DNA of 64,000 bases, from the NCBI GenBank assembly GCA_011959285.1, contig BLLW01000007.1:1-64000 (forward strand), read 5' to 3'. This DNA is from Lachnospiraceae bacterium (GTDB taxonomy: Bacteria > Bacillota > Clostridia > Lachnospirales > Lachnospiraceae). The notes under the pieces are model-generated. The model had not been told where the DNA came from. It made no database searches and worked only from the letters and a program-made list of their open reading frames with translations. Of the stretch, positions 21,944 through 43,464 are shown in pieces. Both the position numbers and the translations under genes were made by a program. Each line of letters opens with the position of its first letter. The stretch's first letter is position 1.

Positions 21944-21949
21944 ACAGGA

Positions 21950-23404: not shown

Positions 23405-24210
23405 TATTCCTCATCCCCATAGTATTCCTGCCACTGCTGCTCCTGGGCTTTCGCCGTGACCGGATCTTCATACACGCGATATCCATCGATGACTTCCAAA
23501 AGTACCAGACCACAGTCCTTTGGATCTTCATTCGTCCGCTTGTTTTCTGCCATCACAATGTAACGGCAGTTCTCTGTCCTGGTCGCCTCAAGCAGTTCTT
23601 CCATGTCAACCACTTCCGGCTTTTCCATTGCCTCGTAAACCGCATTGTAATAATCCCACTGGTTCACCAGCATCTCCCTGCCGTAGGGCATATTGATGGA
23701 AGCATCATACTGCCTTACAAAATGAATCAAATCCGGGGGCATCACCGCCGATACCCTCTCCCCAGGCCGCTCAGGTCCTATCAGATCACAGATCCTGACC
23801 ACCGTATCTGGTATATGGTAAAGATTTTCTGCTCTGGATATATAAGGACTCTTATATACAAAACTTCCGCACAGCACAATGAGAACTGCGCAGACCGCCA
23901 ACCCAATCCGCCTGTGTGATGCAAAAAATCGGCAGGCGCCGTACACGAAAATGACCCCCATGGGAATCGTCCACAAGATACGGTAGTAAGTTTCCCCGTC
24001 CAGCCCTGCCGCCACAAATATCTTTCTGCTCACAGGAAAAAGGAAAAGCAAAATCGTAATAATCGGCGCATACACCAATAGTATCCGTATCTTTTTATCC
24101 CTTTCCGTAAGAAGAAGATAAATCCATGCAAACGCCGCAAGACCTAAGAGCAGCTTAAGTCCTGTATATAATTTAAAGATAACCACGCTTTCCATAAAGA
24201 TTCCAAACAT
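23404..24210 (-). CDS. Membrane protein, C-terminal half of a split DUF6077-like GT-C protein
   Basis: A 268-residue protein with four predicted membrane segments in the first 125 residues and a soluble extracellular tail. YYRILWTIPMGVIFVYG and the tail with PPDLIHFVRQY and NCRYIVMAENK look like the second half of a DUF6077/GT-C membrane protein, with the gene just upstream supplying the first half. It has its own RBS (AAGGAG, seven bases), so the split looks genuine rather than a sequencing frameshift. A role in extracytoplasmic glycosyl transfer is inferred from context only. Confidence 0.75.
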   Translation of the reverse strand: MFGIFMESVVIFKLYTGLKLLLGLAAFAWIYLLLTERDKKIRILLVYAPIITILLFLFPVSRKIFVAAGLDGETYYRILWTIPMGVIFVYGACRFFASHRRIGLAVCAVLIVLCGSFVYKSPYISRAENLYHIPDTVVRICDLIGPERPGERVSAVMPPDLIHFVRQYDASINMPYGREMLVNQWDYYNAVYEAMEKPEVVDMEELLEATRTENCRYIVMAENKRTNEDPKDCGLVLLEVIDGYRVYEDPVTAKAQEQQWQEYYGDEE

Positions 24211-24228
24211 AAAGCATCTCCTTCAAAA

Positions 24229-25314: not shown

Positions 25315-25331
25315 CTGCCTTCTCCTCTCTC

Positions 25332-26894: not shown

Positions 26895-27569
26895 CTAACC
26901 TTTTACTTCTCCGTCATGTGCAAGAAGGGATACCGCCGTGATTCCCTTCATTCCGGAAAGCCTGTCCACAAGTTCCTTCTCCTTTCCTGCCTTTACCTCT
27001 AAAATTAGGTCCATGCCGTCCTTCGTAATGTTTTTTGATTTCAGCTTGTATGCCCCCGCCAGTTTCTTTACTGTGTCTGTAATCTCATCTTCCACTTCTT
27101 TCGTATCCGCATTGATGATCAGAAGATAAGGACTTATTCTAGCCGGAAGCATATCCAGAATCAAAATGCCCACCGTTACTAAAACGGCAAGGATAATGGC
27201 AATCTTATAGAGTCCGGCTCCGCAGATGATCCCTGTCCCGATTGACCAGAATAAGAACAAAAGATCCATAGGGTCCTTAATTGCCGTCCTGAATCTCACG
27301 ATGGAGAGCGCGCCCACCATACCTAAGGAAATCACAATGCTTGACTGCATGGCAAGAATAATCCCCGCCGTCACCACGGAAATAATCGCCATGGAGACGT
27401 TAAAGTTCTTAAAGTAAAAGGCACTCTTGGTTATCTTTTTATATACGAAAAAGATATATACCGCAATCAAGAACGTAATCAGCAGCGTCGTTATGATTTT
27501 TGCCGTTGACAGGTCTGCATAAGAAAACCCTTCTAAAACTGATTTTTTAATTACATCACTAAAATTCAT
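26895..27569 (-). CDS. DUF4956 membrane protein (cassette A)
   Basis: A 224-residue protein with four predicted membrane segments (about 25-42, 55-75, 78-95, 105-135) and a cytoplasmic ferredoxin-like C-terminal domain (about 145-224). The conserved core is GMVGALSIVRFRTAIKDPMDL followed by FWSIGTGIICG. The function of DUF4956 is not established to my knowledge; the charged RFRTA..K loop between helices suggests it handles an anion such as phosphate, which is inference. RBS GGAGG is strong. It follows VTC-A by 23 bases. Two near-equal-length paralogues occur at 29966 and 38169. Confidence 0.93.
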   Translation of the reverse strand: MNFSDVIKKSVLEGFSYADLSTAKIITTLLITFLIAVYIFFVYKKITKSAFYFKNFNVSMAIISVVTAGIILAMQSSIVISLGMVGALSIVRFRTAIKDPMDLLFLFWSIGTGIICGAGLYKIAIILAVLVTVGILILDMLPARISPYLLIINADTKEVEDEITDTVKKLAGAYKLKSKNITKDGMDLILEVKAGKEKELVDRLSGMKGITAVSLLAHDGEVKG

Positions 27570-27592
27570 GAAATTCCTCCGTTCTTGTACCT

Positions 27593-28273
27593 CTAATTCT
27601 GTTTATAATTTCTGGCATAATAATATTTTGAAAATGCAGTTCGCTGTAATACACTGATTTCCAACGCCTGTGCAATGTATTCAGGAAGCAATTCATCATA
27701 TTTCACTTCCAGCACATGATTTCCCTTAGGCAGAAGCGGCACTGCCATGATCTTCTTATCTAAAAAATGCCCTATCGCTTCACTGCCGCTTATATTTTTG
27801 TCGAAAGTGACTCTCACATTGCCTCTTGGTTCCACAAAAGCACATCTCTCATACTCCACCACCGTTACAGGCTTCATGCCGCTCATTTTCATTTCGGCAT
27901 ACAATTCCTTCTCCAGTTCTGCACTGTCCGGCGCCAGAAGCGGCGCTCTGCCGGACATATAAAGCAGGCAGTCCTTTCTGGAAATCTCCCTGCTGACCTT
28001 CCTAGTCATGCCCCGGCATTTGATTTTCTTTTCCAGCTTGATTACCCCATCATTTCCGTCGTAAATGCGGATCCGGTACTTTCTCCTGTTGTCGATACCG
28101 TTCTCGTTTTCCTCCATGCAGGAATTGCCGAAATCATCAAAATACAGGCTCCGCACCGTATAAATGCCATCTTTTTGATGAAGATCCTGCCGCATCAGCA
28201 GCTTCAGCCGATAGCGTATCATTTCCAACTGCGCATCTGAGACCAGAAATTTCAATTCATGCCTATAGTCCAT
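27593..28273 (-). CDS. VTC-domain polyphosphate polymerase-like protein (cassette A)
   Basis: A 226-residue single-domain triphosphate-tunnel protein. The tunnel residues are in order: YRHELKF (3-9), RSLYFDD, RKYRIRIY, KLEKKIK, RVTFD, LEVKYDE and the C-terminal FSKYYYAR. In yeast Vtc4 this domain makes polyphosphate from ATP; all the basic and acidic tunnel positions appear kept, so catalysis is plausible. There is no membrane segment, so it should act in the cytoplasm, perhaps at DUF4956. Its RBS lies within the last codons of CotH-A, five bases upstream, indicating coupled translation. Confidence 0.93.
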   Translation of the reverse strand: MDYRHELKFLVSDAQLEMIRYRLKLLMRQDLHQKDGIYTVRSLYFDDFGNSCMEENENGIDNRRKYRIRIYDGNDGVIKLEKKIKCRGMTRKVSREISRKDCLLYMSGRAPLLAPDSAELEKELYAEMKMSGMKPVTVVEYERCAFVEPRGNVRVTFDKNISGSEAIGHFLDKKIMAVPLLPKGNHVLEVKYDELLPEYIAQALEISVLQRTAFSKYYYARNYKQN

Positions 28274-28278
28274 GCGTC

Positions 28279-29826
28279 TTACCTCATCCGTCCAATATAA
28301 CTGTCCAAAAAGTCGATTCTCTTGTCAATATATTCATAAATATATTCGTCCCGCCAGTATTCGCCCTTAGGCGGCCACTTTTGGCGGTTCCTCACATATG
28401 CCCCTGATGAATAAAGGTATGCATATTCCGCATCCACTTTTGCGTACAGAGCTTCTTTCGTAATAATGCTTTTCCTAAGCTCCTGCCATCTTTCAGCCAT
28501 CAAAGCGCCGATTTCCCCATGATTTCGTTCATACAACGCTTCCATATCCGGAGTCCAGCCGCCTGTACTGTCAAAGTTCTTTTCCTGGAACAGATTGAAA
28601 TTACAATTGATGTCATCAATCCACGAATTTCCCCACGTCATGTTAAGATCCCATGGAATCTTAATGAACTGATAGCTGCCATCCGACTGGTAGTCGGCAT
28701 AGAAATAAACATTCTTCATAATATTATCCATACCGCATGTAAGCAGGTTAAACAAATTATAGTCGACTGCATTTTCTATATTAAGAATTGCCTTTGCAGA
28801 TTCGTAATCCGAAATTTCGCCAAAACAGAACATAGAAGTCCACTGACGCAGCGGATTCCAATCCTCCATCTCAAAATCCTTAGGATATTTTAAGACAAAC
28901 ACCGGGTTCATCTCCCCTGTGAGTTCCTCATAAAAATCCTCTTCTCCGGGATTGACCTGATCACGGCACTTGTACAAAATATCCTGCTTTCCCAAATGCA
29001 GCGCTTTCTTATCGATTCGCTCTGAAAGTCCATATACGCCGAGGTACGTATCATCAATAAATAATTCCACATACTCCATGTGGATTCCCTCATCATAATC
29101 CACATGATTGTCCTCCGCAATCTCCTGCCACACCTCATAGGACAATTTATTGTGAATCAATCCTTCATCATCGTAAAGTCCATGCAAAATCCAATCGTCA
29201 TCCTTTCGCATCCCCAACAAAGAATATTTTTTGTCAGTAAGTGTCAGCCGGTAACTGGATTTCTCATAATTCAGCGTTGTTGCTCCTCTTAAATGCCAGG
29301 AGCATGCTGCCCTTTGATACTGCGATGCGCTGTGGTACTGATCATAGACCCACATATCGCCCGTCATGATTCCTTCTTCATCCGCTTCCACTGCTGTGGT
29401 GATAGATGCAACAGGCATTCCTGTGAAATATACATTATACATCCAGCAGCTTGTATCCCTGACCCAGAACAGATGGAGCATTTTGCTCTCCCTAAGCGTA
29501 CCCTCCTTGTCCTCCAGTGCCTCATCCTGCATAAAATATAGCTTCCCGTCTGGCACCTGCAAAGTGCCGTCAAAGTTCTTTTGGGATAAATCCTGGGGAA
29601 TCAGCAACAGATTCATCTCGCTGTCATAGGCAATCTCTCCTCCGTCTAATGTGATTTCCGATTCCATATAGACATCTTCTTTTCCTTCGCACAAAGCATT
29701 TATTTCTTCCACAGGAAGCACCTCTGCTCCCATCACACTTGTGCTTAGCTTGTCTGCTATTCTGCCGCTCATCAAGTAAATGCCCAAAAACATTACAGAA
29801 AATACAATCATCCAGATTTTTTTCAT
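28279..29826 (-). CDS. CotH-family kinase, membrane-anchored (cassette A)
   Basis: A 515-residue protein with an N-terminal signal anchor (about 4-20) and an extracellular CotH domain. Markers are HLRGATTLNYEKSSYRL (178-193; the RG..T and K of the nucleotide-binding region), EYVELFIDDTYLGVYGLSERID (251-272), the catalytic-loop-like MDN..KN (366-372, Asp367) and the metal motif PWDLN (391-395, Asp393). CotH of Bacillus phosphorylates spore-coat CotB; extracellular members like this have no known target. A 70-residue beta-rich section precedes the kinase. It is the first gene of an operon reaching to 20673. Confidence 0.92.
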   Translation of the reverse strand: MKKIWMIVFSVMFLGIYLMSGRIADKLSTSVMGAEVLPVEEINALCEGKEDVYMESEITLDGGEIAYDSEMNLLLIPQDLSQKNFDGTLQVPDGKLYFMQDEALEDKEGTLRESKMLHLFWVRDTSCWMYNVYFTGMPVASITTAVEADEEGIMTGDMWVYDQYHSASQYQRAACSWHLRGATTLNYEKSSYRLTLTDKKYSLLGMRKDDDWILHGLYDDEGLIHNKLSYEVWQEIAEDNHVDYDEGIHMEYVELFIDDTYLGVYGLSERIDKKALHLGKQDILYKCRDQVNPGEEDFYEELTGEMNPVFVLKYPKDFEMEDWNPLRQWTSMFCFGEISDYESAKAILNIENAVDYNLFNLLTCGMDNIMKNVYFYADYQSDGSYQFIKIPWDLNMTWGNSWIDDINCNFNLFQEKNFDSTGGWTPDMEALYERNHGEIGALMAERWQELRKSIITKEALYAKVDAEYAYLYSSGAYVRNRQKWPPKGEYWRDEYIYEYIDKRIDFLDSYIGRMR

Positions 29827-29899
29827 TTTATGTCAGCCTTTCAAGTAAGTCAACTGTATCCGGTTTCCGTTTCCTTTCATTCTACACCAATTTCTCCAT

Positions 29900-29913
29900 A
29901 GATACTAGTATCT
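29900..29913. promoter_or_regulatory. 14-bp palindrome upstream of cassette A
   Basis: AGATACTAGTATCT is a perfect palindrome about 75 bases before the CotH-A start, in the only gap before this operon (29827-29965). On the minus strand a TAGAAT lies downstream as a possible -10. It could be an operator; no regulator is identified. Confidence 0.35.
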
Positions 29914-29965
29914 CTTCTTTATTCCGGATTTCTGTCCCCCTGTCTCAATTTTTCGTTGTTATATA

Positions 29966-30640
29966 TTATAAAACATCATCAGAATCATATTCCATTAATG
30001 AAAAGCGTTCTACCATTTCTGCCTGCTCCAGATTGCATGCCAAGTTTCCCGCCTCTTTCACCACGATTTCAAAGACGTAATCCATCCCTTTTTCCGTATA
30101 ATTTCTGCTTTTTACTCGATACCTCTTTGCGCATTTCTCCAGCAGTGTTCTAAGGTTTTCTTCCTCCTGTGCCGACTTGCAATGCACCACCAGAATATGC
30201 GACTTCATCCGCTTATTCACATGACCAAGAATGACCAGCGCAACTGTCGCCACAAGCGACGTGATTACTGCCATCTCATATAACTGACAGCCACAGGTGA
30301 TTCCTGTATGAAGGGACCAAAGAATGAAAATCAAATCCACCGGATCCTTCACCGCTGTTCTGAATCGGATAATCGCCAAAGCCCCTATTGTTCCCAAAGT
30401 TATCACCAGATTGGACTGAAGGCAAAGAATAATTGTGGATATAAAAAGCGGAAGTACCGCAATGCTGATATTGAATGCCTTATTGTATAGGGAACGATGC
30501 AGGACTGCCTGGTAAACAATAAACTCATACACCGCCAGTATACCTGCTACGACAAGCACCGCTAATACTGCCGATGTGGAAATCTCCTGATTTTGTAAGC
30601 TGTTCATAATTTGATTGGCTAACGCCTGAATAAGACCCAT
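29966..30640 (-). CDS. DUF4956 membrane protein (cassette B)
   Basis: A 224-residue paralogue of DUF4956-A. Four membrane segments are followed by a soluble C-terminal domain. The conserved core reads LGTIGALAIIRFRTAVKDPVDL then LWSLHTGITCG. It is clearly more diverged from A and C than those are from each other (for example LGTIGA in place of LGMVGA). RBS AAGGAG lies eight bases upstream. It follows CotH-B by 57 bases and is the last gene of cassette B. Confidence 0.93.
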   Translation of the reverse strand: MGLIQALANQIMNSLQNQEISTSAVLAVLVVAGILAVYEFIVYQAVLHRSLYNKAFNISIAVLPLFISTIILCLQSNLVITLGTIGALAIIRFRTAVKDPVDLIFILWSLHTGITCGCQLYEMAVITSLVATVALVILGHVNKRMKSHILVVHCKSAQEEENLRTLLEKCAKRYRVKSRNYTEKGMDYVFEIVVKEAGNLACNLEQAEMVERFSLMEYDSDDVL

Positions 30641-30697
30641 TTTCCCTTCTCCTTATGTGATTTACTATACTCCCAGTACCGCCTGCCCTTGGGCGGC

Positions 30698-32422
30698 TTA
30701 AGGTTTTGCCCTGTAACTATTCAAAATCGGTTCAAGGCAGATTTTTCGTTTATAAAAAAAATCCTTCAATTCCTCAATTTCCCTGTCAAAAGATGCCAGA
30801 GAGTCATCATTATAAAAACGCCTGTCATTTTCCCGCATCGCCTCAGCCATAAAACTTCTATAATCATCAAGCTTTTTTTCCATAGCTTCCGCCTCAAATA
30901 CGGTATCAGACAGTTCTTCTATCCTACTGATCAACTGGCTCTTGAAAGTATCATTTGTCATCAGATTTTTAAACATATCATCATTACTCATCGCCCAACT
31001 TATGGAGTCAAGTTCTGGATAGAAGCCATAAGAATTCATATCAAATACCATCCATCTCCATTTTCCGTCTCCGTATACACCGTCTTCTTCTTTTTTTACT
31101 CTCCAGCAGGCATAATTCTCTGATGGCCAGTCGATTGTTCTCGCCGAATAAAGCATAACCGCCATATAATCAATATAGCTTTCCATATCAATCATCCGAC
31201 ACACCTTATCATAATTTTCATCCTTCGTCAAATCGCTCTCCGAACAGAATTTCACCATGTTTCCATAATATTTATAGTCCTCTTCTTCCCCTTCTGCCAG
31301 TTCCAACGCTTTGACCATAATCAAATTATCTTTATTTACACCATAATAATATTCCAGATAACGCGCATCATATTTTTCACATATCCAATAAACACCCCAA
31401 TATTCCCCGTTCAAAAACATGACACACGGTCTATAATTCAATGCCGAAACATTTAAATCCTTGATTGCAGTACTGACCAGCCAGTCCTTTGCTTTCGTCC
31501 TCACATCATTACCGCCCTGAAAGACCGTCATGGCTGACGGCTGATACCCTGTTCCAAAAAGATCTGCTTCAAAAACTTTATTTCCGTCATATTCTTTTCT
31601 GGCATATAGATTCAGGCTCTTGGGATTATACGCCCTGGTGCTTGTCCCATGAATGCGAATGCCGCATTCTTGTTCAAAAACAGGTTCTCCTGTTGCGTCA
31701 AAAAACTGGCATACCGCCTTTCTTTCCCATTTTATCCCTCTATTCTTGTAATTTGCAAGCCACTGTGACCAATAAGCCTCACGAAAAATATAAATTCCCT
31801 GATTCCTGTATTCATTTACATAATCATCATACTCTTTGCCAGACACATAAATACCGGTTTCATAGTCAAACAGATTGGCTGGATCCGTCACAATACTGAG
31901 AGTGCTTATTCCGTCATATCCCTCCTTGTCAGAAAACCCAACAAAATAAGTCGCAGTTTTTGCATCTCTGCATTGCCCCTGTGCATCGTAAAGCGCTGCA
32001 CGTATCACAGTTGCTTTATCAATCTTATAATTCGGTGTTTCATAACCTGGGAAAGGTTCCTCAATGCTCATTTTTTCTACCGCTTCACGATCAAACGCTA
32101 CTGAGATATCGGTTCGCATGGAATAAGTATTCTCCTTCTGTGTGGCATCTGCAATCAAAATAGGCGCTTCATATTTTGCAGACTCCTGCGTTGGGATTGA
32201 ACCATCCAGCGTGTAATAAATCGTCCCTGCCCCTGCCGTCATTTCCAGTTGAAACGGCTCCTCATAAAAGCCAGATTCCCTGGAAAAAGACATTCTGAAT
32301 TTTCCATCTTCCATCACGCTTTTATCACTTTCAGCGCAAAGCCATTCCGTCACCACCGCAAAAAGCAAAAGCAATATGCTTCCTATTATAAAAATCCTGT
32401 TTTTTCTTGCATAAAACCTCAT
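30698..32422 (-). CDS. CotH-family kinase with chitobiase-C-like domain (cassette B)
   Basis: A 574-residue membrane-anchored protein (anchor about 9-25). Residues about 45-165 form a chitobiase/Fn3-type beta domain (TIYYTLDGSIPT, ATVIRAALYDAQG) known from carbohydrate-active and surface proteins. The CotH domain (about 170-574) has IRIHGTSTRAYNPKSL (255-270), MFLNGEYWGVYWICEKYD (335-352), a catalytic-loop-like IDWPSEN (430-436) and FDMN (460-463) in the metal position. The added domain suggests its target or docking site is a surface glycan or glycoprotein. The start abuts the VTC-B stop codon (TAGATG). Confidence 0.92.
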   Translation of the reverse strand: MRFYARKNRIFIIGSILLLLFAVVTEWLCAESDKSVMEDGKFRMSFSRESGFYEEPFQLEMTAGAGTIYYTLDGSIPTQESAKYEAPILIADATQKENTYSMRTDISVAFDREAVEKMSIEEPFPGYETPNYKIDKATVIRAALYDAQGQCRDAKTATYFVGFSDKEGYDGISTLSIVTDPANLFDYETGIYVSGKEYDDYVNEYRNQGIYIFREAYWSQWLANYKNRGIKWERKAVCQFFDATGEPVFEQECGIRIHGTSTRAYNPKSLNLYARKEYDGNKVFEADLFGTGYQPSAMTVFQGGNDVRTKAKDWLVSTAIKDLNVSALNYRPCVMFLNGEYWGVYWICEKYDARYLEYYYGVNKDNLIMVKALELAEGEEEDYKYYGNMVKFCSESDLTKDENYDKVCRMIDMESYIDYMAVMLYSARTIDWPSENYACWRVKKEEDGVYGDGKWRWMVFDMNSYGFYPELDSISWAMSNDDMFKNLMTNDTFKSQLISRIEELSDTVFEAEAMEKKLDDYRSFMAEAMRENDRRFYNDDSLASFDREIEELKDFFYKRKICLEPILNSYRAKP

Positions 32423-33181
32423 CTAAATACTGCTCACTTTCTTTTCCTGTAAGGCAATTCTTCCTAAATAGTATTTAGAAAAGGACTGTTGCAGGCGTAC
32501 ATCCGCTTGCAGAACTGCCTTAATATAGGATGGAAAAACTTCATCAAATTTTACTTCCAAAACATGCATCTTGCTTTCCATAATCGGCACCTTGAAATAA
32601 TCACCGTTCAAGAAGCGCCCGATTTCATCTGAAGCAGAAATATTGTAATCCAGCGTAACCCGTATATTTGCAACAGGTTCCACAAAAGCCTCCCTCTGAT
32701 AGCTGATGATTGCCTTAGGTCGAAATCCTTTTGTGACAATATCGATGCAGAACGCCTTCAGCAGATGATCCTCTGTCCCCCAGAAGACATCCATAACTTT
32801 CCCTTCCATGATGTTCTGGTATTCTTCCAAGGAAATCGCACACTTTTCTTTATGACATCCGCTGTTTTTCTTTTCCTTCTTCTCCAGCCAAAGCTTTCCT
32901 GCATAATCTCCATAATAGCGGATGCGATATTTGAACCTTTTTCCTTCACCAGACACATTATCTCTCGCGCAGGTATCCTTATAGTCATCAAAATACAGAC
33001 TTTGAATCCCGTATTTTCCGTCTTTCCCTGCATGGACATCATAATCCAATATCCCCGCAAGCCGTTCTCTAACCGAAAGCAATTCCGCTTCCTTTTCGCT
33101 ATATTTCCACTCGTTCCTATACTTAGAACCAGCATCCTTTATCTTTTCCCGTTTCAACAAGTTTCCATGTTTCTTTATCAT
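32423..33181 (-). CDS. VTC-domain polyphosphate polymerase-like protein (cassette B)
   Basis: A 252-residue triphosphate-tunnel protein with a 20-residue basic N-terminal extension not seen in copies A and C. Tunnel motifs: YRNEWKY (21-27), QSLYFDDYKD, FKYRIRYY, LWLEKKEK, RVTLDYN, LEVKFDE and FSKYYLGR. All key positions are kept. Here the VTC gene comes first, before CotH-B, unlike cassettes A and C. It is divergent from an acyltransferase gene across 245 bases. Confidence 0.92.
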   Translation of the reverse strand: MIKKHGNLLKREKIKDAGSKYRNEWKYSEKEAELLSVRERLAGILDYDVHAGKDGKYGIQSLYFDDYKDTCARDNVSGEGKRFKYRIRYYGDYAGKLWLEKKEKKNSGCHKEKCAISLEEYQNIMEGKVMDVFWGTEDHLLKAFCIDIVTKGFRPKAIISYQREAFVEPVANIRVTLDYNISASDEIGRFLNGDYFKVPIMESKMHVLEVKFDEVFPSYIKAVLQADVRLQQSFSKYYLGRIALQEKKVSSI

Positions 33182-33342
33182 AAATAATACTTTTACCTCT
33201 CTGCAGATACTTCATTCAATTGTCGGACAAAAATATGGACTTAACATTAGCATTTTATCACAAGAATCCATATAATTCCATTGCAAACTAACGGTCAAAA
33301 TGAATTTTTGTGCCAGATCAGTGGGATGTGCCACCCCACTTA

Positions 33343-33371
33343 TTGACTAACACCATGCTTATTGATATGAT
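33343..33371 (+). promoter_or_regulatory. Promoter for the acyltransferase gene
   Basis: TTGACT (33343-33348), exactly 17 bases, then TATGAT (33366-33371); each box differs from consensus by one base. It lies 55 bases before the ATG at 33427. Confidence 0.65.
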
Positions 33372-33426
33372 TATAAAGCTTTTATGTAACGAGATATTTT
33401 TCAAATCTGCAGAAAGGACAAGCAAA

Positions 33427-34434
33427 ATGTATAATTTAATATTTTCAGCCTCCGTCATTCTAATTCTAGCAATTCTTTTGTTCGCTGGATTGAAACAAGA
33501 CAAAAACGGAGAAAAAGCAATTATATTGCAGCGCTTTAATAATATAAGGGGTTTTTTTGCCTTAGAAATCATAATTGGTCATGTGATCAGATATGACAAG
33601 TCGATTTTATATCCCCTAGGGAAATTTATGATTATATCAGTGGCATTCTTTTTCTTTGTTTCAGCCTTTGGATTATCTTACTCTTTTAGGACGAAGGATA
33701 ATTATTTAAAGGGATTTATAAAGAAAAAATGTTGTTATCTGATGCTTTTAATTGTTGTGGCATACTGTCTCAATGTATTTATTTCTTTGTTTGTACCTGT
33801 AAATACCGGATATTACGCGGGAATCCAATCAATAATTCCTTTACTATTCTCTAAAACAAATTGGTATCTATGGGCATTACTGTTTTTTTACTTTCTGTTT
33901 TACATAATATTTAGATTTACCCAAAAACATAGGTGGCTGTACTTTTTTCTGATAGTGTCTGTTCTGACTGCACTCCTATTTAAAGCAGGATGGCCGGAAG
34001 GATGGTATGCTTCTTCATTTGCTTTTCCATTTGGACTGTTTTATGAAGAATACTATGAAAAATGCAATGATTTCCTTTATAGTAAAAAGGGATACGGACT
34101 TACCCTATTGCTTGTATGTCTGGGCCTAAGCAGTCAATTATTAGATACAAACAGCCTGGTCGGCATGGTATACTTGAGAAATATTATGTGTATTGCCGGG
34201 CTTCTTATTTTGATATATGTGTTGCATATTTTTGAAATCAACAATCGGGGGATGCGAATACTGACAAAGTATTCTACAGAACTGTACCTTTTCCAATTTA
34301 TTTATCTGAGAATTTCCGAAGCAACCCCGTGGGACTACAAATTGAGAATGATATTTGTCATAACGCTGACAGCGGTTACAGCTTTCTTTATGTATAGGGT
34401 AATCAATAAGGCTAGAGCTTGCATGCATACCTAG
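33427..34434 (+). CDS. Acyltransferase-3-like membrane protein
   Basis: A 335-residue protein with about 10 membrane segments. RGFFALEIIIGHVIRY (near 40-55) matches the RG..AL....H signature of the acyltransferase-3 (OafA) family, and a conserved NWYLWALLFFYFLFY follows. Such proteins transfer acetyl or similar groups to surface sugars. The start has AAAGGA eight bases upstream and lies downstream of a good promoter, so the in-frame extension back to 33310 is rejected. The gene is more AT-rich than its neighbours and lies on the opposite strand between cassettes B and C, which hints at separate acquisition. Confidence 0.82.
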   Translation: MYNLIFSASVILILAILLFAGLKQDKNGEKAIILQRFNNIRGFFALEIIIGHVIRYDKSILYPLGKFMIISVAFFFFVSAFGLSYSFRTKDNYLKGFIKKKCCYLMLLIVVAYCLNVFISLFVPVNTGYYAGIQSIIPLLFSKTNWYLWALLFFYFLFYIIFRFTQKHRWLYFFLIVSVLTALLFKAGWPEGWYASSFAFPFGLFYEEYYEKCNDFLYSKKGYGLTLLLVCLGLSSQLLDTNSLVGMVYLRNIMCIAGLLILIYVLHIFEINNRGMRILTKYSTELYLFQFIYLRISEATPWDYKLRMIFVITLTAVTAFFMYRVINKARACMHT

Positions 34435-34460
34435 ACTCCAATTTAAAACCATGCTATAAT
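34432..34460 (+). promoter_or_regulatory. Promoter of a dead gene
   Basis: TAGACT (34432-34437), 17 bases, then a perfect TATAAT (34455-34460), 38 bases before an AAGGAGG/ATG whose reading frame is broken. Confidence 0.5.
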
Positions 34461-34497
34461 AATACGTCCATATTAATCTAGCAAAAAAGGAGGAATT

Positions 34498-34973
34498 ATG
34501 ATTTAATTTAAAGAAAAGGACAAATGTTTCACTATAATTTTAAAATCGATTTTATTGCTCATAACATACGCCGGTGCTGGCTTTTTAGCATTGTTGTTAG
34601 TGTATTCCCTCCCAAGAGACCTAATTCTTCTCAACAATAACAATATTGAGGGATCGGAAATCACGATAATAAGCGGAATGGTAAAAGTTTTTTCCCATTA
34701 TTTGCAGCTGCCTTATTTACTGTTAATTATGGGAGGTCTTCTATATACCATAATACTTTCCCTAAAAACAAAGCCAGTTTCAACCTGGTTATGCAGAAGC
34801 ATTCCATGGTCTTGGTAGCCTTGTTTCCTTTCTGTCATTTGATTGCGTCCACTCATGCCTTTTATCACCATCATTTTGTATACCGGGAATTTGCAGTTAC
34901 TCTTCTGGCTGTCCTGTTTATCATTCTTGATATCAAAAAGAGCGCTGAGCTTTCATCTACCACAGACGGTTAA
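34498..34973 (+). pseudogene. Remnant of a polytopic membrane protein gene
   Basis: An ideal AAGGAGG RBS is followed by ATG ATT TAA: a stop at codon 3. The same frame then reads on for over 100 codons with two hydrophobic helices (LLLITYAGAGFLALLLVY near 34552 and YLLLIMGGLLYTIILSL) to a stop at 34818. A second frame (about 34791-34973) continues with VALFPFCHLIAS, then HHHFVYREFAVTLLAVLFIIL, which looks like the C-terminal end of a multi-helix sugar-modifying membrane protein. The short total length implies a large internal deletion as well as a nonsense and a frameshift mutation. The original function cannot be fixed. Confidence 0.75.
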
Positions 34974-35011
34974 CGATATATATTCAGTTAGTGCCGAAGT
35001 TTTTCAAATTA

Positions 35012-35040
35012 TGGACACAGTTTTCAAATTATGTTACAAT
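35012..35040 (+). promoter_or_regulatory. Promoter for the FAD oxidoreductase gene
   Basis: TGGACA (35012-35017), 17 bases, then TACAAT (35035-35040); each box is one base from consensus. It lies 62 bases before the ATG at 35103. Confidence 0.65.
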
Positions 35041-35102
35041 GACATAATATATATGAACTCATGCCAAATATGATTTCATACAGGAAAGGTGGATATAAAA
35101 GT

Positions 35103-36677
35103 ATGAAGAAAGCTCTTGTCATAGGCGCAGGTCCCGCGGGTCTTACCGCCGCTTATGAACTTTTGACCAAGTCAAAGGACATTGAAGTAACTGTATTTGA
35201 AGAAAGCGATTGTTTTGGCGGTATTTCCAAAACCGTAAACTATAAAGGGAACCGGATGGATATGGGCGGTCACCGCTTCTTTTCCAAGATTCCTGAAGTA
35301 AACGAGTGGTGGGACAAGATGCTCCCCATGCAGGGTGCTCCCACTTATGACGACATTCTTTTAGACAGACCCATGCCCCTTACCAAGGGCGGTCCCGACC
35401 CCGAAAAGGAAGACCGGGTCATGCTGACCAGACACCGCGTATCACGCATTTATTTTGATTCCAAATTCTACGACTATCCTATTTCCTTAAAGTTAGAAAC
35501 CTTTAAAAATTTTGGATTTCTGACCACCATGAAGGTGGGCTTCAGTTATCTGGCTTCTCTGATTCACAAAAGACCGGATGATAATCTTGAGAATTTTTAT
35601 ATCAACCGCTATGGACGCAAGCTCTACTCCATGTTCTTTGAGTACTACACCGAAAACCTGTGGGGACGCCATCCCAGCGAAATCGACGCCTCATGGGGCG
35701 CACAGCGCACCAAAGGTCTATCCATCATGGCGATTATCAAGGACGTATTCGAGAAAAAGTTCAAAAAGAAAAACCGCAAGGTAGAGACCTCCCTGATCGA
35801 GGAATTTAAATACCCCAAGCTCGGTCCCGGTCAGCTCTGGGATGTAACCGCCTCTGAAATTGAAAAGCTGGGCGGAACCATCATCAAAAATGCAAAAGTA
35901 ACAAAAGTGCACAAAAACGAGAGCAATGTCATTACCTCCCTCACCTACGAAAAGGATGGTCAGGAGCACACCATGGAAGGCGATTACTTCATCTCCTCCA
36001 TGCCGGTAAAAGATCTTGTAAACGGCATGAACGACGTCCCTGCCGATCCCGCCCGGATTGCAGCGGGACTTCCCTACCGCGACTACATGACCTTAGGCGT
36101 TCTCGTTCCCAAGATCAACTTAAAAAACAAGACCAAACTAAAGACCGTCAGCAACATCGTCCCCGACTGCTGGGTCTACGTTCAGGACAGGCATGTAAAA
36201 CTGGGTCGATTCCAGATTTACAACAACTGGTCCCCTTACATGATCAAAGATCTTGAGCACACCGTATGGATTGGTCTTGAATACTTTGTAAACGAAGGCG
36301 ACAACTTCTGGAACATGACCGAAGAAGAATTTTCCAAGATTGGTATCGATGAAATGATCAAACTCGGACTCATTGACAGCCCGGACGTCGTCCTGGACAC
36401 CCACATGGAAAAAGTTAAAAAAGCGTACCCCGCCTACTTTGACACCTACGATGAAATCGACACCCTAGTAGCATACCTAAGCTCCATCGATAACCTCTAC
36501 TGCGTAGGACGCAACGGTCAGCACCGCTACAACAACATCGACCACTCCATGGTAACTTCCTTCGAGTCCGTAAAAAATATCCTAAGCGGAATCAAAGACA
36601 AGACCAACATCTGGAACGTCAACACCGAAAAAGAATACCACGAAGAAGGCGCCAAAAATGAGGCGGAAGTAGATTGA
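35103..36677 (+). CDS. FAD-dependent amine-oxidase/UGM-like oxidoreductase
   Basis: A 524-residue flavoprotein. The dinucleotide-binding [14 protein letters not shown] (8-21), the acidic end of strand 2 ([10 protein letters not shown]) and [11 protein letters not shown] match the UDP-galactopyranose mutase/protoporphyrinogen-oxidase-like fold. The C-terminal FAD contact is [20 protein letters not shown]. Members with this RYNNIDHS ending are common in glycan clusters, where a role on a nucleotide or lipid-linked sugar is suspected, not shown. The start has AAAGGTGG about 10 bases upstream and its own promoter. It is monocistronic and ends 43 bases before the foldback element. Confidence 0.85.
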
Positions 36678-36720
36678 CATCTGCGAGGTTGGTTATTTAT
36701 TTTGAATGATTTACGCCGGG

Positions 36721-37026
36721 CGGGTAGCGTAACCCACCGGCAAAGGGGAAGCGCTCCGCAGCCCGGCAGCAATAAAACTGTACGGAACCTATAAAAATCA
36801 GCAAGAAAAACTAAGCATCCCTGATTTAATCTGTCAGGGAGGACGCAAACAGCGTATGGGATCATCCATGGTCCCAGTTACGCTTTCGTCGGACGTCCTG
36901 TCCGCCGATTGCTGGGTATCGAGAGGGATACTAAGTTTTTCTAACTGATTCTTATAAGGTTCCGTACAGTTTTATTGCTGCCGGGCTGCGGAGCGCTTTC
37001 CCTTTGCCGGTGGGTTACGCTACCCG
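36721..37026. mobile_element. 306-bp foldback (MITE-like) element
   Basis: The region 36678-37103 has no gene. Its centre is a giant inverted repeat. The left arm starting CGGGTAGCGTAACCCACCGG (36721 to about 36791) is matched by its complement ending at 37026, with one substitution in about 71 bases. The inner segments continue the pairing imperfectly: AATCAGCAAGAAAAACTAAG near 36797 pairs with a diverged copy near 36930-36950, and a TGGGATCATCCATGGTCCCA-type centre lies near 36857. Transcribed, it would fold into one long hairpin. It encodes no transposase. A non-autonomous foldback element is most likely; a structural RNA or bidirectional terminator between the convergent genes is the alternative. 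Confidence 0.75.
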
Positions 37027-37103
37027 TCCTCATTGTCAAGCCAAAATTTATTCCCGCGAGCAACGAACCAAGTGACTGCTTGCAGGCATTTGATTAGAAT
37101 ATT

Positions 37104-38084
37104 TTACTTTCTAAAAAGGGATTGCCTGGCGCCGTGGTTGGCATCTCGATTTTTCAGGGTGTCGTCTACTACATCCATGCGAAGTCCGGCGTCGATGAAG
37201 TCGCAGTATTTGCAGAAGTTGTAGTCTCCGCGGCTCTTTCGGATTGCCTGGCGGAGTTTTTTGTATTCTTCGCTGTTCCAGGCTTCCTTGAGGGGGGTCT
37301 TGGTGAGGTCGGCTAAAGTGGTTGCCTCGAAGTTGTCGCAGCAGCAGATTCCCATTCTTCCGTCGGGGAAGATGAACATGTCGGTGTAGGGCATCAGGCA
37401 GGTCTCTTTGATGATCTTCTGGGTGTTTTGTTTGTTGGGGGCGCTTCCGGCGCGGTTGGTGAGGACTGCGTCCATGTAGCGCATCTGAATCAAAAGTTCT
37501 ACGTCCTTAAATTCTTCTTCATGGGCTTTGGCATAGTCGTAGATTTCTTTTACGTTATCGTGGAGTTTCATGTCACGGCAGTAGTTGTTGATGATCAGCT
37601 GATCCACGTAAGGGATGATTTCCTTTACTTTGTCAACGGTGAGTAAAAGTCCGTTGGAGGAAAGAAAGATGAAACAGTCGGGAAGCTGTTCCCGGCAGTA
37701 TTTGTGAAATTCTACGATTCTGGTGTCAAGGAAGGGCTCGTTGTTTCCATACAGGGTCAGGTGTCCCTTATAGCCCCAGTCACGGAGCTGGTCTATGATG
37801 TTGTAGAACAGCTCGTCGTCCATGCGTTTGTAGGGGCGCTTTTCTGCGTTCTTGTTAGCTGTGCAGAAGGAGCAGGTGCTGTTGCAGCGGTTGATCGTCT
37901 CTAAGTTGACCACCAGCGGCATGGGTGCCTCTTCACCCTGGAAAAAGTAATCGATATATTTTCCCTGAAGTTTGTTTCTGGTAAGAAATTGTAATTTTAG
38001 GTAGCTTTCGGAGGAAAGCTTGGGGAATCTCTTCTGTAAGTTCCATCCTAACGTTCCGCCAAAATTGTGAAATTTAACTGACAT
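37104..38084 (-). CDS. Radical SAM/SPASM protein
   Basis: A 326-residue enzyme. The cluster motif CNSTCSFC (Cys67, Cys71, Cys74) binds the SAM-cleaving 4Fe-4S cluster, and YGNNEPFLD is the GGEP-equivalent. The C-terminal region (CLMPYTDMFIFPDGRMGICCCDN then CKYCDF) is a SPASM-type auxiliary cluster site. Such proteins modify peptides or sugars; single-copy members next to glycan genes often act on nucleotide sugars, while the absence of a small precursor peptide nearby argues against a RiPP pathway. RBS AAGGAG lies seven bases upstream. It lies downstream of cassette C but has its own promoter-like sequence. Confidence 0.9.
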   Translation of the reverse strand: MSVKFHNFGGTLGWNLQKRFPKLSSESYLKLQFLTRNKLQGKYIDYFFQGEEAPMPLVVNLETINRCNSTCSFCTANKNAEKRPYKRMDDELFYNIIDQLRDWGYKGHLTLYGNNEPFLDTRIVEFHKYCREQLPDCFIFLSSNGLLLTVDKVKEIIPYVDQLIINNYCRDMKLHDNVKEIYDYAKAHEEEFKDVELLIQMRYMDAVLTNRAGSAPNKQNTQKIIKETCLMPYTDMFIFPDGRMGICCCDNFEATTLADLTKTPLKEAWNSEEYKKLRQAIRKSRGDYNFCKYCDFIDAGLRMDVVDDTLKNRDANHGARQSLFRK

Positions 38085-38136
38085 AGCTTGTCTCCTTTAT
38101 CTTAAATACATTGTTCTCAAAGTTATTGCTAACTGT

Positions 38137-38168
38137 ATTATAGTATCATTTTATGCATGGGGCGTCAA
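38137..38168 (-). promoter_or_regulatory. Putative promoter for the radical SAM gene
   Basis: On the minus strand TTGACG (38163-38168) directly follows the DUF4956-C stop. A perfect TATAAT is at 38137-38142 but 20 bases away; TACTAT at 17 bases is the alternative -10. The spacing makes this tentative. Confidence 0.4.
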
Positions 38169-38843
38169 TTAAAAGGTCACTTCTCCGTCATGAGATACCA
38201 GCGAAACGCTCTCCACTCCTTCTAAATGTTCCAGTTCCTGCATCATTTCATATTCCTTCAAAGCGCGGACCTCTATTACAAGATTGCACTTTCCCGCCGC
38301 GATATTTCTTGATTTCACTTTATAGTATTTGCAGTATTCTGCAATTTTCTGCGTAAAAAGCGGTTCTTTTTGGGATTCCTTTAAATTTGCCACCAGAATC
38401 ATGGGCGCGCGTCCTATCGGAAGTCTGTCCAATACCATGACTAAAATGGTGAGTACAAGGGAAAGCACCACCGCCACCTCTGTCATGTGGGCGCCGCAGC
38501 AGATTCCTACCGCAATAGACCAGAACATAAAGCATAAATCCATAGGTTCCTTGACTGCAGTCCTGAAACGCACGATAGAGAGAGCGCCTACCATACCCAA
38601 CGAAATAACGATGCTGGACTGCACCGCCAAAATAATCGCTGCCGTGGTGACAGCAAGGGCTGCTAATGAAATATTGAAATTCTTGGAATAAAAAGTCTTT
38701 TTGGTGACGAGCCTATAGACCATGAAAATGTAAGCGGCTATGACGGCAGTAATCAGAAGTACTGCCGCTATATGCATGACGCTGATGTTTTCACTGGTGT
38801 ATGATGCTAAGAAATCCTTTTTAAATATATCCGAAAAACTCAT
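38169..38843 (-). CDS. DUF4956 membrane protein (cassette C)
   Basis: A 224-residue protein, the third copy. Four membrane segments and a soluble C-terminal domain; the core reads GMVGALSIVRFRTAVKEPMDL then FWSIAVGICCG. It ends SLVSHDGEVTF, matching the SLLAHDGEVKG ending of copy A, so A and C are close relatives. It follows VTC-C by 48 bases. Function is unknown; see copy A. Confidence 0.93.
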   Translation of the reverse strand: MSFSDIFKKDFLASYTSENISVMHIAAVLLITAVIAAYIFMVYRLVTKKTFYSKNFNISLAALAVTTAAIILAVQSSIVISLGMVGALSIVRFRTAVKEPMDLCFMFWSIAVGICCGAHMTEVAVVLSLVLTILVMVLDRLPIGRAPMILVANLKESQKEPLFTQKIAEYCKYYKVKSRNIAAGKCNLVIEVRALKEYEMMQELEHLEGVESVSLVSHDGEVTF

Positions 38844-38891
38844 TTTATTTTCCCGCCTTTCTGTTGGTATTCCTCTAAGTGTAGTGTTGTA

Positions 38892-39587
38892 TCATGTCTT
38901 AAATTTTCTGCACAGATAGTATTTTGAAAAGGTGCTCGCCGACAGTCCGTCGAGCTGCAAAAGTCCGTGTATCTCATCTGGAAGAAAACTGTCAAACTTC
39001 ACTTCCATAAGCGCCCATCCGGCTCTCATTACACCCCGCCCGCTTACTTTTTCGTCCAAAAAAGTCTGCACATTGCTCACAGAAGTGATATTACAGTCAA
39101 AGGTGACCCGCACATTGGCGTCCTGCTGCCTGTAAACATAAGGAACCCTGTCATAATCCACAATGACCACCGGCTTCATGAAACGCACCGCCATCAATAT
39201 CGCCAGCTTATGCAATACCTGCTGGTCCGGCTGTATGTCATTTGGAATGATGCCGTCCATCAACTGCCTGCACTGCTGCCGGGTAATCAGGCATGCGCGC
39301 TTACTTGTCTTCCCCCGGATTTTCTGTTTCACTTCAAGGCTGATCCGGTCTGTCTGATGATTATAGATACGTATTCTGTATTTTTCCCTGTTGTCCACAC
39401 CGTTTTCATTATCCATATAACAGCGGTTCTCATAGTCATCAAAGTATAAGCTCCTGATGTTATAAGAGCCATCCTCTCCGGCATGCACATCAAGGGAGGC
39501 AACTGCGCTTATTTTGGCATCTTCTATTATCCTTTGTCCATGTGTTAAAGGATATTTATATTCGTGTCTGTAGTGATCCTGCTCCAA
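38892..39587 (-). CDS. VTC-domain polyphosphate polymerase-like protein (cassette C)
   Basis: A 231-residue triphosphate-tunnel protein. YRHEYKY (6-12), RSLYFDDYEN, EKYRIRIY, ISLEVKQK, NVRVTFD, LMEVKFDS and FSKYYLCR are the tunnel motifs. LEVK replaces the LEKK of copies A and B. The start is TTG, supported by AAGGAG eight bases upstream; that RBS lies in the last codons of CotH-C, so translation is coupled. Confidence 0.92.
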   Translation of the reverse strand: MEQDHYRHEYKYPLTHGQRIIEDAKISAVASLDVHAGEDGSYNIRSLYFDDYENRCYMDNENGVDNREKYRIRIYNHQTDRISLEVKQKIRGKTSKRACLITRQQCRQLMDGIIPNDIQPDQQVLHKLAILMAVRFMKPVVIVDYDRVPYVYRQQDANVRVTFDCNITSVSNVQTFLDEKVSGRGVMRAGWALMEVKFDSFLPDEIHGLLQLDGLSASTFSKYYLCRKFKT

Positions 39588-39590
39588 TGA

Positions 39591-41474
39591 TTATTCTCCT
39601 TCTTGCATCCAAACGGCTTCCAGCACCCGGTCTTCCCAAATAATCGTATCCTGGGTGACAGCTTCCCCTGTATCTGCATCCACATAGTAAAAATGCGCCC
39701 CATCTATCGTTTCATAGGAAGCAAGGTCTGCAATCGGCGTCCCCCTCTCTACCCAGAAATAAACCGTCTGATAATAATCCTGATTCAGGGCTTGCGATTC
39801 ATTCTTTACTTCCACTACGCAGAAATCAACCTGTTCTATCCACAGTTTATCCAGAAATTCTTTTTTCTCTGACAAAAAATCTTTTACCATATTCACATGG
39901 CTTTCAAGACCTGCAAACCGCCTATAATCCGTTCCCTGAGGAACCGAATAGTCCTTTGGCAGCGTAAACATCCAGTCAAGCCTTTTATCATGCCACCGGA
40001 ATCCATCCAATTCCGCGCTGCGGCGGATTCTGCCTGCCCAAAGTTCTATACCCGTATCCAGAATCTCTTCCAGCTTCCCCCTGAATATCTGCTGGTACTT
40101 ATCTTCCACTGCCTTCCTAAATTCATCATTCCGGTACATAGCCGAAAGCCATCTGTTCTGATTGGCATTACCCGCAGGGCGGGACTGCCCCGCAGAAGTT
40201 ACAAGGGCTGCCGGATTTCCAAACATGGGAGTATTGACATTTCCCATTGTACCGTCAAAATCCCACACCGGTCCCGCATACAAAAACGGATTTTCTTTAT
40301 CCGTCACATAGGCAAAGGTACTTGCGATTCCCGTATCATGATCCCCTGATATTTCCTGAATCAACCACATTTCCGCCCATGAATCCATGTCAATCAGCTG
40401 GGATAACTTTTTCCCGCTTATGCTGCTGACACCATCCTGTGCAAACAACGCGCTCTCGATATCATTTATCATGTTCTCAATCCGGCTCTTTTCACCAGCC
40501 GAAATTCCCTCTGCATTCCTGAGGGCAAAAATCTGTCCCCTCTCCGACACCACAAAAGGCTCATTTTCTTCCAGACGGAAGTCCAGCTCCATTTCCAAAA
40601 ACCAACTGTACGCAGGGTCGATGGCAAGCCGGTTCTCACCGATTTCCACCGCCTCCGTCAACAGATACATGCCCATATACTGCCCGTTTAAATACACCTC
40701 CATAAATTCCCCGTCCGGCTCATAGGCATCTATGCTCCTGTTTGCCAGCTCCAGCACCGTTTTATTCCTGATATAGGAGCCGTCCGTGGCATTTGCCAGC
40801 AGATTCCATTTCACCGCAGGCGCCATGCCGCATAAGCCTATGGGCTCCTTGAAGGAAAAGGTAAACGGTCTCTTATCCAAAGTTGCCGTAAGATTCCCCC
40901 TTATCTTAAATTTATCCAGCTTTTCACTGCACACAATCCTTCCCTCTTCGTCCAATATACATGCAGTGCCCGTCTCGATATACTTCTTGTTGTCAAATTC
41001 ATCCAGCCTGATCAGATCTTCCCTATCCTCCACCGTGACCATCATAACGGGAAGATTTTCAGATACCAACACCTTGAATGGCTTGTCCATATAAGTGCTT
41101 CCAAAGAGTCCCTTCACTTCTATGCGATGTTCCCTTTCCTTGCCGCTATCCCGAAAAACATCGCCCGCCGCATAAGGCGCACCGTCAATCTCCACCTTTC
41201 CATAGCTTTCCTCATACGCCAGAGACAATTCTATTTCCTTCTTCGCAAAACAGGAAGGCAGGAAAAGATAATAGCTCCCATCTTCTCCGTCTTCCCACAG
41301 TCCAATCCGTATTTCCTGCCCATCTAAAACACTTGCAAAAGACAATCCCTCCACAAATTCCTTTTCATGATCCGTCTGTAAATAAGAAACTGTCAGCAAG
41401 AATAACAAGATAAGGCATGCACTTGCAATCATAAATCCATGTATTCCGTTTCCAGCTCTCCTACTGCAATGCAT
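39591..41474 (-). CDS. CotH-family kinase, membrane-anchored (cassette C)
   Basis: A 627-residue protein, the most canonical CotH of the three. A signal anchor (about 14-31) is followed by a beta-rich region to about 140, then the kinase: KFKIRGNLTATLDKRPFTF (188-206), FMEVYLNGQYMGMYLLTEAVE, a catalytic-loop-like SGDHD (376-380) and GPVWDFDGTMGN (401-412), where both metal-site Asp residues (405, 407) are present. Copies A and B have Asn at the second. A C-terminal segment of about 80 residues has a beta-rich repeat-like end (YETIDGAHFYYVDADTG). It heads cassette C behind a clear promoter. The phosphorylation target is unknown. Confidence 0.92.
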   Translation of the reverse strand: MHCSRRAGNGIHGFMIASACLILLFLLTVSYLQTDHEKEFVEGLSFASVLDGQEIRIGLWEDGEDGSYYLFLPSCFAKKEIELSLAYEESYGKVEIDGAPYAAGDVFRDSGKEREHRIEVKGLFGSTYMDKPFKVLVSENLPVMMVTVEDREDLIRLDEFDNKKYIETGTACILDEEGRIVCSEKLDKFKIRGNLTATLDKRPFTFSFKEPIGLCGMAPAVKWNLLANATDGSYIRNKTVLELANRSIDAYEPDGEFMEVYLNGQYMGMYLLTEAVEIGENRLAIDPAYSWFLEMELDFRLEENEPFVVSERGQIFALRNAEGISAGEKSRIENMINDIESALFAQDGVSSISGKKLSQLIDMDSWAEMWLIQEISGDHDTGIASTFAYVTDKENPFLYAGPVWDFDGTMGNVNTPMFGNPAALVTSAGQSRPAGNANQNRWLSAMYRNDEFRKAVEDKYQQIFRGKLEEILDTGIELWAGRIRRSAELDGFRWHDKRLDWMFTLPKDYSVPQGTDYRRFAGLESHVNMVKDFLSEKKEFLDKLWIEQVDFCVVEVKNESQALNQDYYQTVYFWVERGTPIADLASYETIDGAHFYYVDADTGEAVTQDTIIWEDRVLEAVWMQEGE

Positions 41475-43442: not shown

Positions 43443-43464
43443 TTTCCGCTCCTTATCCTGCTGC

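Follow-up and report, generated by a model that had tools for sequence, protein, structure and literature searches.

We analyzed a 64,000-nucleotide window of DNA (positions 1-64,000 of contig BLLW01000007.1, forward strand; assembly GCA_011959285.1, Lachnospiraceae bacterium) that contains three cassettes, A, B, and C, each encoding a CotH-family kinase-like protein, a VTC polyphosphate-polymerase-like protein, and a DUF4956 membrane protein. Our main finding is that VTC and DUF4956 are a near-obligate pair, associated far beyond chance. The outer partner of this pair is exchangeable; CotH is not an obligate member of the module. We tentatively read these genes as a two-protein core with an exchangeable outer partner, in which VTC would make polyphosphate, DUF4956 would couple this activity to the membrane, and an extracytoplasmic partner would use the product.

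VTC and DUF4956 occur together

We surveyed an even sample of 378 genomes from the phylum of the host. VTC is present in 64 genomes and DUF4956 in 65, with 64 common to both; in the lone DUF4956 genome (G400), the gene sits beside a broken CotH gene and there is no VTC match. The two genes are also neighbors: DUF4956 lies within 3.5 kb of 75 of the 79 VTC matches in the survey, and VTC lies near 75 of the 78 DUF4956 matches. The four VTC places without a nearby DUF4956 are in G058, where VTC starts a contig, G305, where the gene is broken, G372, and G271. Of 14 named controls, three have both VTC and DUF4956 (Bacteroides ihuae, Corynebacterium glutamicum, and Methanosarcina acetivorans), and no other has either.

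A scan of public genomes for VTC confirmed 576 relatives; the best 80 loci were retained, and since almost all of them come from Clostridia they represent close relatives. In all 80 of these related loci, a DUF4956 gene is found no more than 1.5 kb from VTC and on its strand, and some CotH gene is present in 78 (there is none in L020 or L040). After filtering by length, 78 related loci yielded 83 VTC-DUF4956 pairs, 74 of them with CotH on the same strand. No fusions of VTC, DUF4956, or CotH were found among the open reading frames of the related loci scanned. The partners also diverge together; across 94 trios, sequence distances in VTC correlate with those in DUF4956 (r=0.93) and in CotH (r=0.70), and none of 500 permutations reached either value. 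The first-pass annotation of this DNA had argued that the three products work together and had looked to a survey of gene neighborhoods to check it; the conserved co-occurrence of VTC, DUF4956, and CotH, their adjacency, and their correlated divergence all support such a functional link.

In five loci (L098, L100, L101, L110, and L115), a response regulator and a histidine kinase, recognized by eye from their N-termini, are divergently encoded near the VTC-DUF4956 pair. These adjacent genes suggest that the pair is under signal control.

The outer partner is CotH or Cthe_2159

Across the 378 survey genomes, CotH is found in 55, after a sub-threshold match in G184 was dropped, and Cthe_2159 (PF14262) in 45, with G075 below the cut-off of that family. 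CotH is present in 49 of the 64 VTC-positive genomes, and the other 15 all carry Cthe_2159. The latter family also occurs in 24 of the 49 genomes with both VTC and CotH, and in only 6 of the 314 VTC-negative genomes. Within 5 kb of the 75 neighboring pairs, we find CotH alone 42 times, Cthe_2159 alone 22 times, both twice, and neither nine times; each genome behind those nine pairs has CotH or Cthe_2159 elsewhere. Some pairs with neither neighbor adjoin other proteins, such as those with lamin-tail and leucine-rich repeat domains. Counting one place per gene, Cthe_2159 has VTC within 5 kb at 25 of its 48 places. As for the controls, B. ihuae has Cthe_2159 and no CotH, and C. glutamicum and M. 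acetivorans have CotH.

Cthe_2159 is described as a beta-helix protein with affinity for celluloses and for polygalacturonic acid or acid sugars (PMC6712302); this description, together with a few N-termini viewed by eye, suggests export of the Cthe_2159 proteins. According to the same paper, anaerobic gut fungi have Cthe_2159 as well as CotH domains, which no other organism in its comparison shares (PMC6712302), and these two are the outer partners of the bacterial pair.

CotH appears to follow the pair according to its predicted location. We scored a CotH protein as exported if it had an uncharged hydrophobic 14-mer near the start codon. Three proteins (from L147, L154, and L169) were set aside, G400 lacks a complete CotH, G184 was dropped, and the copies from the window's own genome were excluded. 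Of 59 survey proteins scored as exported, 58 are in VTC-positive genomes and 40 adjoin a VTC-DUF4956 pair; of nine scored as non-exported, none adjoins a pair and four are in VTC-negative genomes. One of these nine (L141, 616 amino acids) has a signal-like stretch just below the threshold, which leaves eight clear cases of 352-407 amino acids, the length of spore CotH. Fisher tests of this split give p values of 0.00014 and 0.0007, which overstate the evidence because related species and subfamilies are counted. The same scoring marks as exported 93 of the 96 complete CotH proteins from the 80 related loci, and all three CotH proteins in the window have a strong N-terminal hydrophobic segment. 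By these predictions, exported CotH is tied to VTC and non-exported CotH is not.

The CotH family profile matches spore CotH in the PDB (5jd9) with E=1.1e-25. Two aligned aspartates, which we take to be the catalytic residues, are well conserved, one in 163 and the other in 153 of the 172 CotH proteins aligned. They are found at the aligned columns in CotH A and C of the window; CotH B has I and R at these columns, probably through misalignment, and a nearby FDMN fits by eye. Searching the PDB with CotH B as a single protein (phmmer) returned no true relative and two weak matches to a designed protein.

Three divergent cassettes in the window

All nine open reading frames lie where the first-pass annotation had put them, on the minus strand, and each scores above the Pfam cut-off for PF08757, PF09359, or PF16316. 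Bit scores in the three cassettes are 123-133 for VTC (cut-off 23) and 116-137 for CotH (cut-off 23.8).

28279..29826, minus strand: cassette A CotH-family kinase-like protein, with an N-terminal membrane anchor and predicted to be extracytoplasmic (PF08757, E=4.5e-34; hydrophobic segment 2.41; closest relative in the set 86%)
27593..28273, minus strand: cassette A VTC polyphosphate-polymerase-like tunnel protein, predicted to be cytoplasmic (PF09359, E=4.7e-36; AlphaFold2 pLDDT 95; best Foldseek match yeast Vtc4, E=3e-14)
26895..27569, minus strand: cassette A DUF4956 protein, with five predicted transmembrane helices and an ACT-like domain (PF16316, E=1.3e-11; AlphaFold2 pLDDT 74)
32423..33181, minus strand: cassette B VTC protein, first gene of the cassette (PF09359, E=1.4e-35)
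30698..32422, minus strand: cassette B CotH-family protein, with an N-terminal anchor and chitobiase/FN3-associated domains (PF08757, E=1.9e-39; PF13290; PF13287; hydrophobic segment 3.11)
29966..30640, minus strand: cassette B divergent DUF4956 protein, 33% identical to that of A (PF16316, E=3.3e-9; PF02308 MgtC, sub-threshold, E=3.3e-4)
39591..41474, minus strand: cassette C CotH-family protein, with an N-terminal anchor and an extra C-terminal region (PF08757, E=2.4e-33; hydrophobic segment 2.91)
38892..39587, minus strand: cassette C VTC protein, with a TTG start (PF09359, E=1.9e-38)
38169..38843, minus strand: cassette C DUF4956 protein (PF16316, E=7.9e-12)

Cassettes A and B stand head to tail with a gap of 139 nucleotides, and C lies about 5 kb away. 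Gaps at the junctions within each trio are 5 and 23 nucleotides in A, 0 and 57 in B, and 3 and 48 in C. The stop-start contact described in the first-pass annotation is seen at three of these six junctions and is absent from the other three; as for its ribosome-binding sites inside preceding genes, purine-rich, ribosome-site-like stretches precede most starts by eye, some of them within the gene before. Cassettes A and C are transcribed in the order CotH-VTC-DUF4956, but in B the VTC gene comes first (VTC-CotH-DUF4956). The order in B is unique among 124 VTC-DUF4956 pairs (83 from the 80 related loci, three from the window, and 38 others), and CotH stands between the other two genes in just two pairs.

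The window sits on contig C7 of a 4.23 Mb assembly, and its nearest VTC matches are from Lachnospiraceae. A fourth CotH/VTC/DUF4956 trio, with a Cthe_2159 gene inserted, is found on contig C1 of the same genome, and a CotH fragment at the start of contig C165. Four VTC matches are listed in no other of the 64 VTC-positive survey genomes. Two full VTC-DUF4956 pairs in a single locus are also found in L021, L022, L023, L030, and L067.

The cassettes had been described as a triplication. The VTC proteins of A, B, and C are only 33-40% identical to one another. The closest relatives of cassette A in other species are 80-86% identical in VTC, 92-94% in DUF4956, and 79-86% in CotH; for the two closest to cassette C, the values are 76-79%, 85-87%, and 58-61%. 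Because the VTC proteins in the window differ more from one another than those of A and C do from their relatives in other species, a recent tandem triplication is ruled out. The cassettes are divergent paralogues, with close orthologues of A and C occurring in other species, and from these identities they appear to have been gathered and retained, not freshly copied. Cassette B has no close relative among the 80 related loci. In a congener, a weak MgtC match (L134:1255-1929) is by its sequence a B-type DUF4956, and hence a relative of cassette B within the genus.

As for viral carriage, 25 stretches in viral contigs gave pattern matches and none was confirmed as a VTC relative. A complete trio is annotated on the Pseudobutyrivibrio plasmid pNP95 (L219), amid glycosyltransferase and acyltransferase genes, and another on a Planococcus plasmid (L220), near a HEAT-repeat protein gene as in the NELoc-2 locus of Clostridium perfringens discussed below.

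The VTC protein resembles yeast Vtc4

Searched against the PDB, the VTC family profile has yeast Vtc4 as its best match (3g3q, E=1.6e-8). The model of the cassette A protein (pLDDT 95.2) matches Vtc4 3g3r in Foldseek with E=3.1e-14; crystal forms of Vtc4 with AppNHp or polyphosphate come top, and chains of the VTC complex fill ranks 1-13, above the triphosphatases. A phmmer search of the PDB with VTC A as a single protein found no true relative. The residues matching Vtc4 K200, R264, R266, K281, K294, R361, and R373, presumably the catalytic residues, are identical in all 59 VTC sequences compared (three from the window and 56 picked by length and redundancy), as are seven further chosen positions. 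The first-pass annotation had staked its proposal on phosphate or nucleotide binding by VTC, and the retention of the phosphate-tunnel residues of Vtc4 is consistent with such binding. Fold and residues together suggest that VTC makes polyphosphate. No SPX domain was found in the three VTC proteins of the window, where the VTC domain is the sole domain found. The genome also has a match to a PPK1-type gene, which rules out VTC as the sole polyphosphate synthase of the cell; bulk cytoplasmic polyphosphate need not depend on VTC.

DUF4956 is a distant relative of MgtC

DUF4956 had been called a four-helix protein; the model of the cassette A protein (pLDDT 74) instead has five predicted membrane helices followed by a beta-alpha-beta-beta-alpha-beta domain (ferredoxin/ACT-like). 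Loop charges place the H1-H2 loop, the H3-H4 loop, and the C-terminal domain on the cytoplasmic side. Three basic residues in the predicted cytoplasmic H3-H4 loop (R92, R94, and K98) are invariant in 52 DUF4956 sequences.

An hhalign comparison of the DUF4956 family with 13 MgtC proteins from related genomes (95.6%, E=1.1e-8, 137 columns) aligned the GxxGA region and the C-terminal ACT-like domain, and this alignment makes DUF4956 a distant MgtC homologue. Against the PF02308 (MgtC) cut-off of 31.4 bits, cassette B reaches 21.4 bits and A and C have no listed match. The weak Foldseek matches listed are to ACT and similar domains, with the MgtC C-terminal domain 7qa5 at rank 9 (E=0.011), and those that we recognize cover the C-terminal domain only. 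Searching the PDB with the DUF4956 protein of B alone (phmmer) found no relative, and the family profile found only NapD (E>0.5). The link to MgtC had been noted before: Streptococcus intermedius SIR_1592 was described as having a membrane domain of MgtC type together with an ACT domain (PMC12345266), and we take this protein to be a DUF4956.

Polysaccharide context and Pel

The window is an island with genes for ABC-type polysaccharide export and acyltransferases, and many glycosyltransferases are recognizable by eye. Downstream of cassette A, four genes run on tightly, starting 9 nucleotides away, and are neighbors, not members of the module:

21950..26885, minus strand: a protein with no Pfam match (a membrane protein by eye), a DUF6077 protein, a second protein with no Pfam match, and an MBOAT acyltransferase, assigned by Pfam and separated by gaps of 9, 17, 18, and -1 nucleotides

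Two MBOAT acyltransferase genes, each followed by a gene for a protein of about 385 amino acids with no Pfam match, account for the stretches 20673-23404 and 42414-44901; one such pair ends the run from cassette A. By eye, the two pairs resemble the acyl-transfer pairs of exopolysaccharide systems. Just upstream of the cassette C CotH gene, on the same strand, a YhcG-type PDDEXK nuclease (41577-42257) has only the end of its N-terminal domain and is possibly truncated. Another gene (16041-18806) encodes a protein of 921 amino acids whose N-terminal acidic stretch is very long; it also carries a choline-binding repeat and, at the C-terminus, a family-25 lysozyme domain.

The genes cotH, polyphosphate polymerase, DUF4956, and DUF4832 have been described as accessory genes of Pel in streptococci and clostridia, with a variant in bifidobacteria (PMC7112168). 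One PelG query, from survey genome G099 and applied to flanks of at most 9 kb, matched neither the window nor any of the 78 related trio loci, ruling out Pel as a required neighbor. PelG was found in one of 35 larger survey loci (L107, the source of the query) and beside one further CotH (L176). A PelF query gave weak matches in related loci L062, L056, and L040 (E 3e-8 to 8e-6), with no PelG there, and we take these as probable general glycosyltransferase similarity. In the excerpts of PMC12345266, the arrangement was not found outside a Pel locus in the authors' analyses; our results disagree on that point, since many trio loci lie outside Pel loci.

A proposed phosphate supply line and its alternatives

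The module that we tentatively propose would work in three steps. In the cytoplasm, VTC would make polyphosphate from ATP in its tunnel, as fold and residues suggest; DUF4956 would hold VTC at the membrane and pass or gate the chain; and CotH or Cthe_2159 would use or bind phosphate outside the membrane, where ATP is scarce, modifying a surface glycan or protein. Given a cytoplasmic polymerase-like enzyme, one membrane protein, and an outward partner of two unrelated kinds, with inward CotH free of them, a transmembrane phosphate supply would be the simplest explanation. CotH may itself use polyphosphate. A version of this proposal in which polyphosphate made by VTC and passed by DUF4956 is the phosphoryl donor for extracytoplasmic CotH, so that the system would be a split analogue, in bacteria, of yeast VTC, we consider quite unlikely. 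None of the literature found proposes such a donor role for CotH, in a search that most subscription papers and all bioRxiv preprints fell outside.

Several observations weigh against the supply line. The export split is in part a split between CotH subfamilies, and the tests do not count independent events; genome G068 (93% complete assembly) has a lipoprotein-like CotH with no VTC match. Characterized CotH kinases use ATP. The DUF4956 model has no full-length match to a solved structure in Foldseek (none with E<=0.001), and its relative MgtC is known as a regulator (PMC12345266). The main obstacle is a set of published knockouts, which also make out of date the statement in the first-pass annotation that the trio has no experimental assignment. 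In 10% artificial sputum medium, S. intermedius lost more than half of its aggregation when SIR_1592 (MgtC/ACT) or the CotH gene SIR_1594 was deleted, and Pel went up without SIR_1592 and down without SIR_1594 (PMC12345266). For deletion of the VTC-type gene SIR_1593, the excerpts report no change in aggregation or Pel (PMC12345266). In a strict donor chain, all three deletions should have the same phenotype, and if CotH needs VTC, then losing VTC should look like losing CotH. Redundancy with the PPK1 product, a scaffold role for CotH, or the wrong assay could account for the mismatch; we regard these as excuses until tested.

The strongest rival is an MgtC-like regulatory module, which fits the knockouts better than a phosphate supply line does. 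Here VTC and DUF4956 would form a sensor or regulator of glycan assembly and no polyphosphate would cross the membrane: VTC would report the ATP or phosphate state, DUF4956 would tune a membrane enzyme or the supply of ATP or phosphate, and CotH or Cthe_2159 would be the actuator outside. The homology of DUF4956 to MgtC, together with the weak match of its ACT-like domain to 7qa5, speaks for this reading, as do the opposite effects on Pel of losing the MgtC/ACT-type gene and the CotH gene with no reported effect for the VTC-type gene (PMC12345266), and the family-2 glycosyltransferase matches in 19 of the 82 flanking proteins that were scanned out of 95 distinct ones collected. It is harder to reconcile with a polymerase tunnel kept whole in 59 of 59 sequences, for which a sensor has no obvious need, and it leaves unexplained why exported CotH is tied to VTC and non-exported CotH is not. 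Taken together, we think this alternative doubtful.

We judge it unlikely that polyphosphate is instead an exported product, held on the surface or in the matrix, with Cthe_2159 or CotH binding or attaching it (e.g. with calcium) and not using it as a donor. That Cthe_2159, a binder of celluloses and acid sugars (PMC6712302), is present in 15 of 15 VTC-positive CotH-negative genomes and lies within 5 kb of VTC at 25 of 48 places would fit such a role. Pure binding would not require the presumed kinase aspartates, and most CotH proteins keep them. Nor are we aware of surface polyphosphate being reported in these species, a point at which no search was aimed.

Lastly, that VTC is a tripolyphosphatase or nucleotide-binding tunnel protein, linked to the others only through shared surface-polysaccharide islands, is very improbable: its fold also matches the triphosphatases E. 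coli YgiF and AtTTM3 and the window is such an island, but VTC-complex chains rank above triphosphatases and the VTC-DUF4956 pairing holds in 64 genomes with varied flanks.

Significance

The trio itself is already known: it has been published as an accessory group of Pel, and its genes have been knocked out (PMC7112168, PMC12345266); in the papers found, it is either such a group or its genes are listed unlinked. As far as that literature shows, the following are new: VTC and DUF4956 as a near-obligate core, Cthe_2159 as the alternative to CotH, the rule for exported CotH, and occurrence outside Pel loci, with one genome carrying several divergent cassettes. The uncharacterized family DUF4956 can now be tested as the membrane partner of a polyphosphate-polymerase-like enzyme, and its near-total co-occurrence with VTC suggests that both serve whatever acts on the outside of the cell. 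For extracellular kinases, the system raises the question of which phosphate donor they use; the donor reading, if true, would answer how a kinase works outside the cell without ATP.

Comparison with known systems

The closest known arrangement is the Pel accessory group (PMC7112168; SIR_1594-1592 in PMC12345266), which, as excerpted, shares the families, their contiguity, a secreted CotH, a polyphosphate polymerase domain, and an MgtC-like ACT protein. The system described here differs in having no PelG in the window or the 78 related loci, several divergent cassettes in a single genome, and a CotH that can be absent where Cthe_2159 is present. VTC or polymerase-domain genes and CotH genes are also reported in C. 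perfringens NELoc-2 (PMC2879425, PMC11677781). That locus has two VTC genes, each followed by a membrane protein of 222-226 amino acids, along with CotH and a chitin-synthase-like transferase (PMC2879425). The authors named the 222-226-amino-acid proteins tubulin/FtsZ, whereas we take them to be DUF4956, and in the excerpted text they do not link these genes functionally (PMC2879425).

The yeast VTC complex (Vtc4; PDB 3g3q, 8i6v) has the same tunnel fold and residues and likewise joins a polymerase domain to a membrane part, which is encoded by a separate gene here. Unlike the yeast complex, the bacterial proteins have no SPX domain that we found, and the membrane partner is the MgtC-like DUF4956, not a Vtc1-type protein. 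Our CotH proteins share the kinase domain of the Bacillus spore-coat kinase CotH, by the profile match to 5jd9 given above. The eight survey CotH proteins of spore length, in contrast, have neither an export segment nor a VTC neighbor, and the B. subtilis control has CotH with no match to VTC or DUF4956. Finally, MgtC/SapB (PF02308) and DUF4956 are alike in the GxxGA region and the ACT-like domain, but DUF4956 falls below the Pfam cut-off and stands as a separate family linked to VTC.

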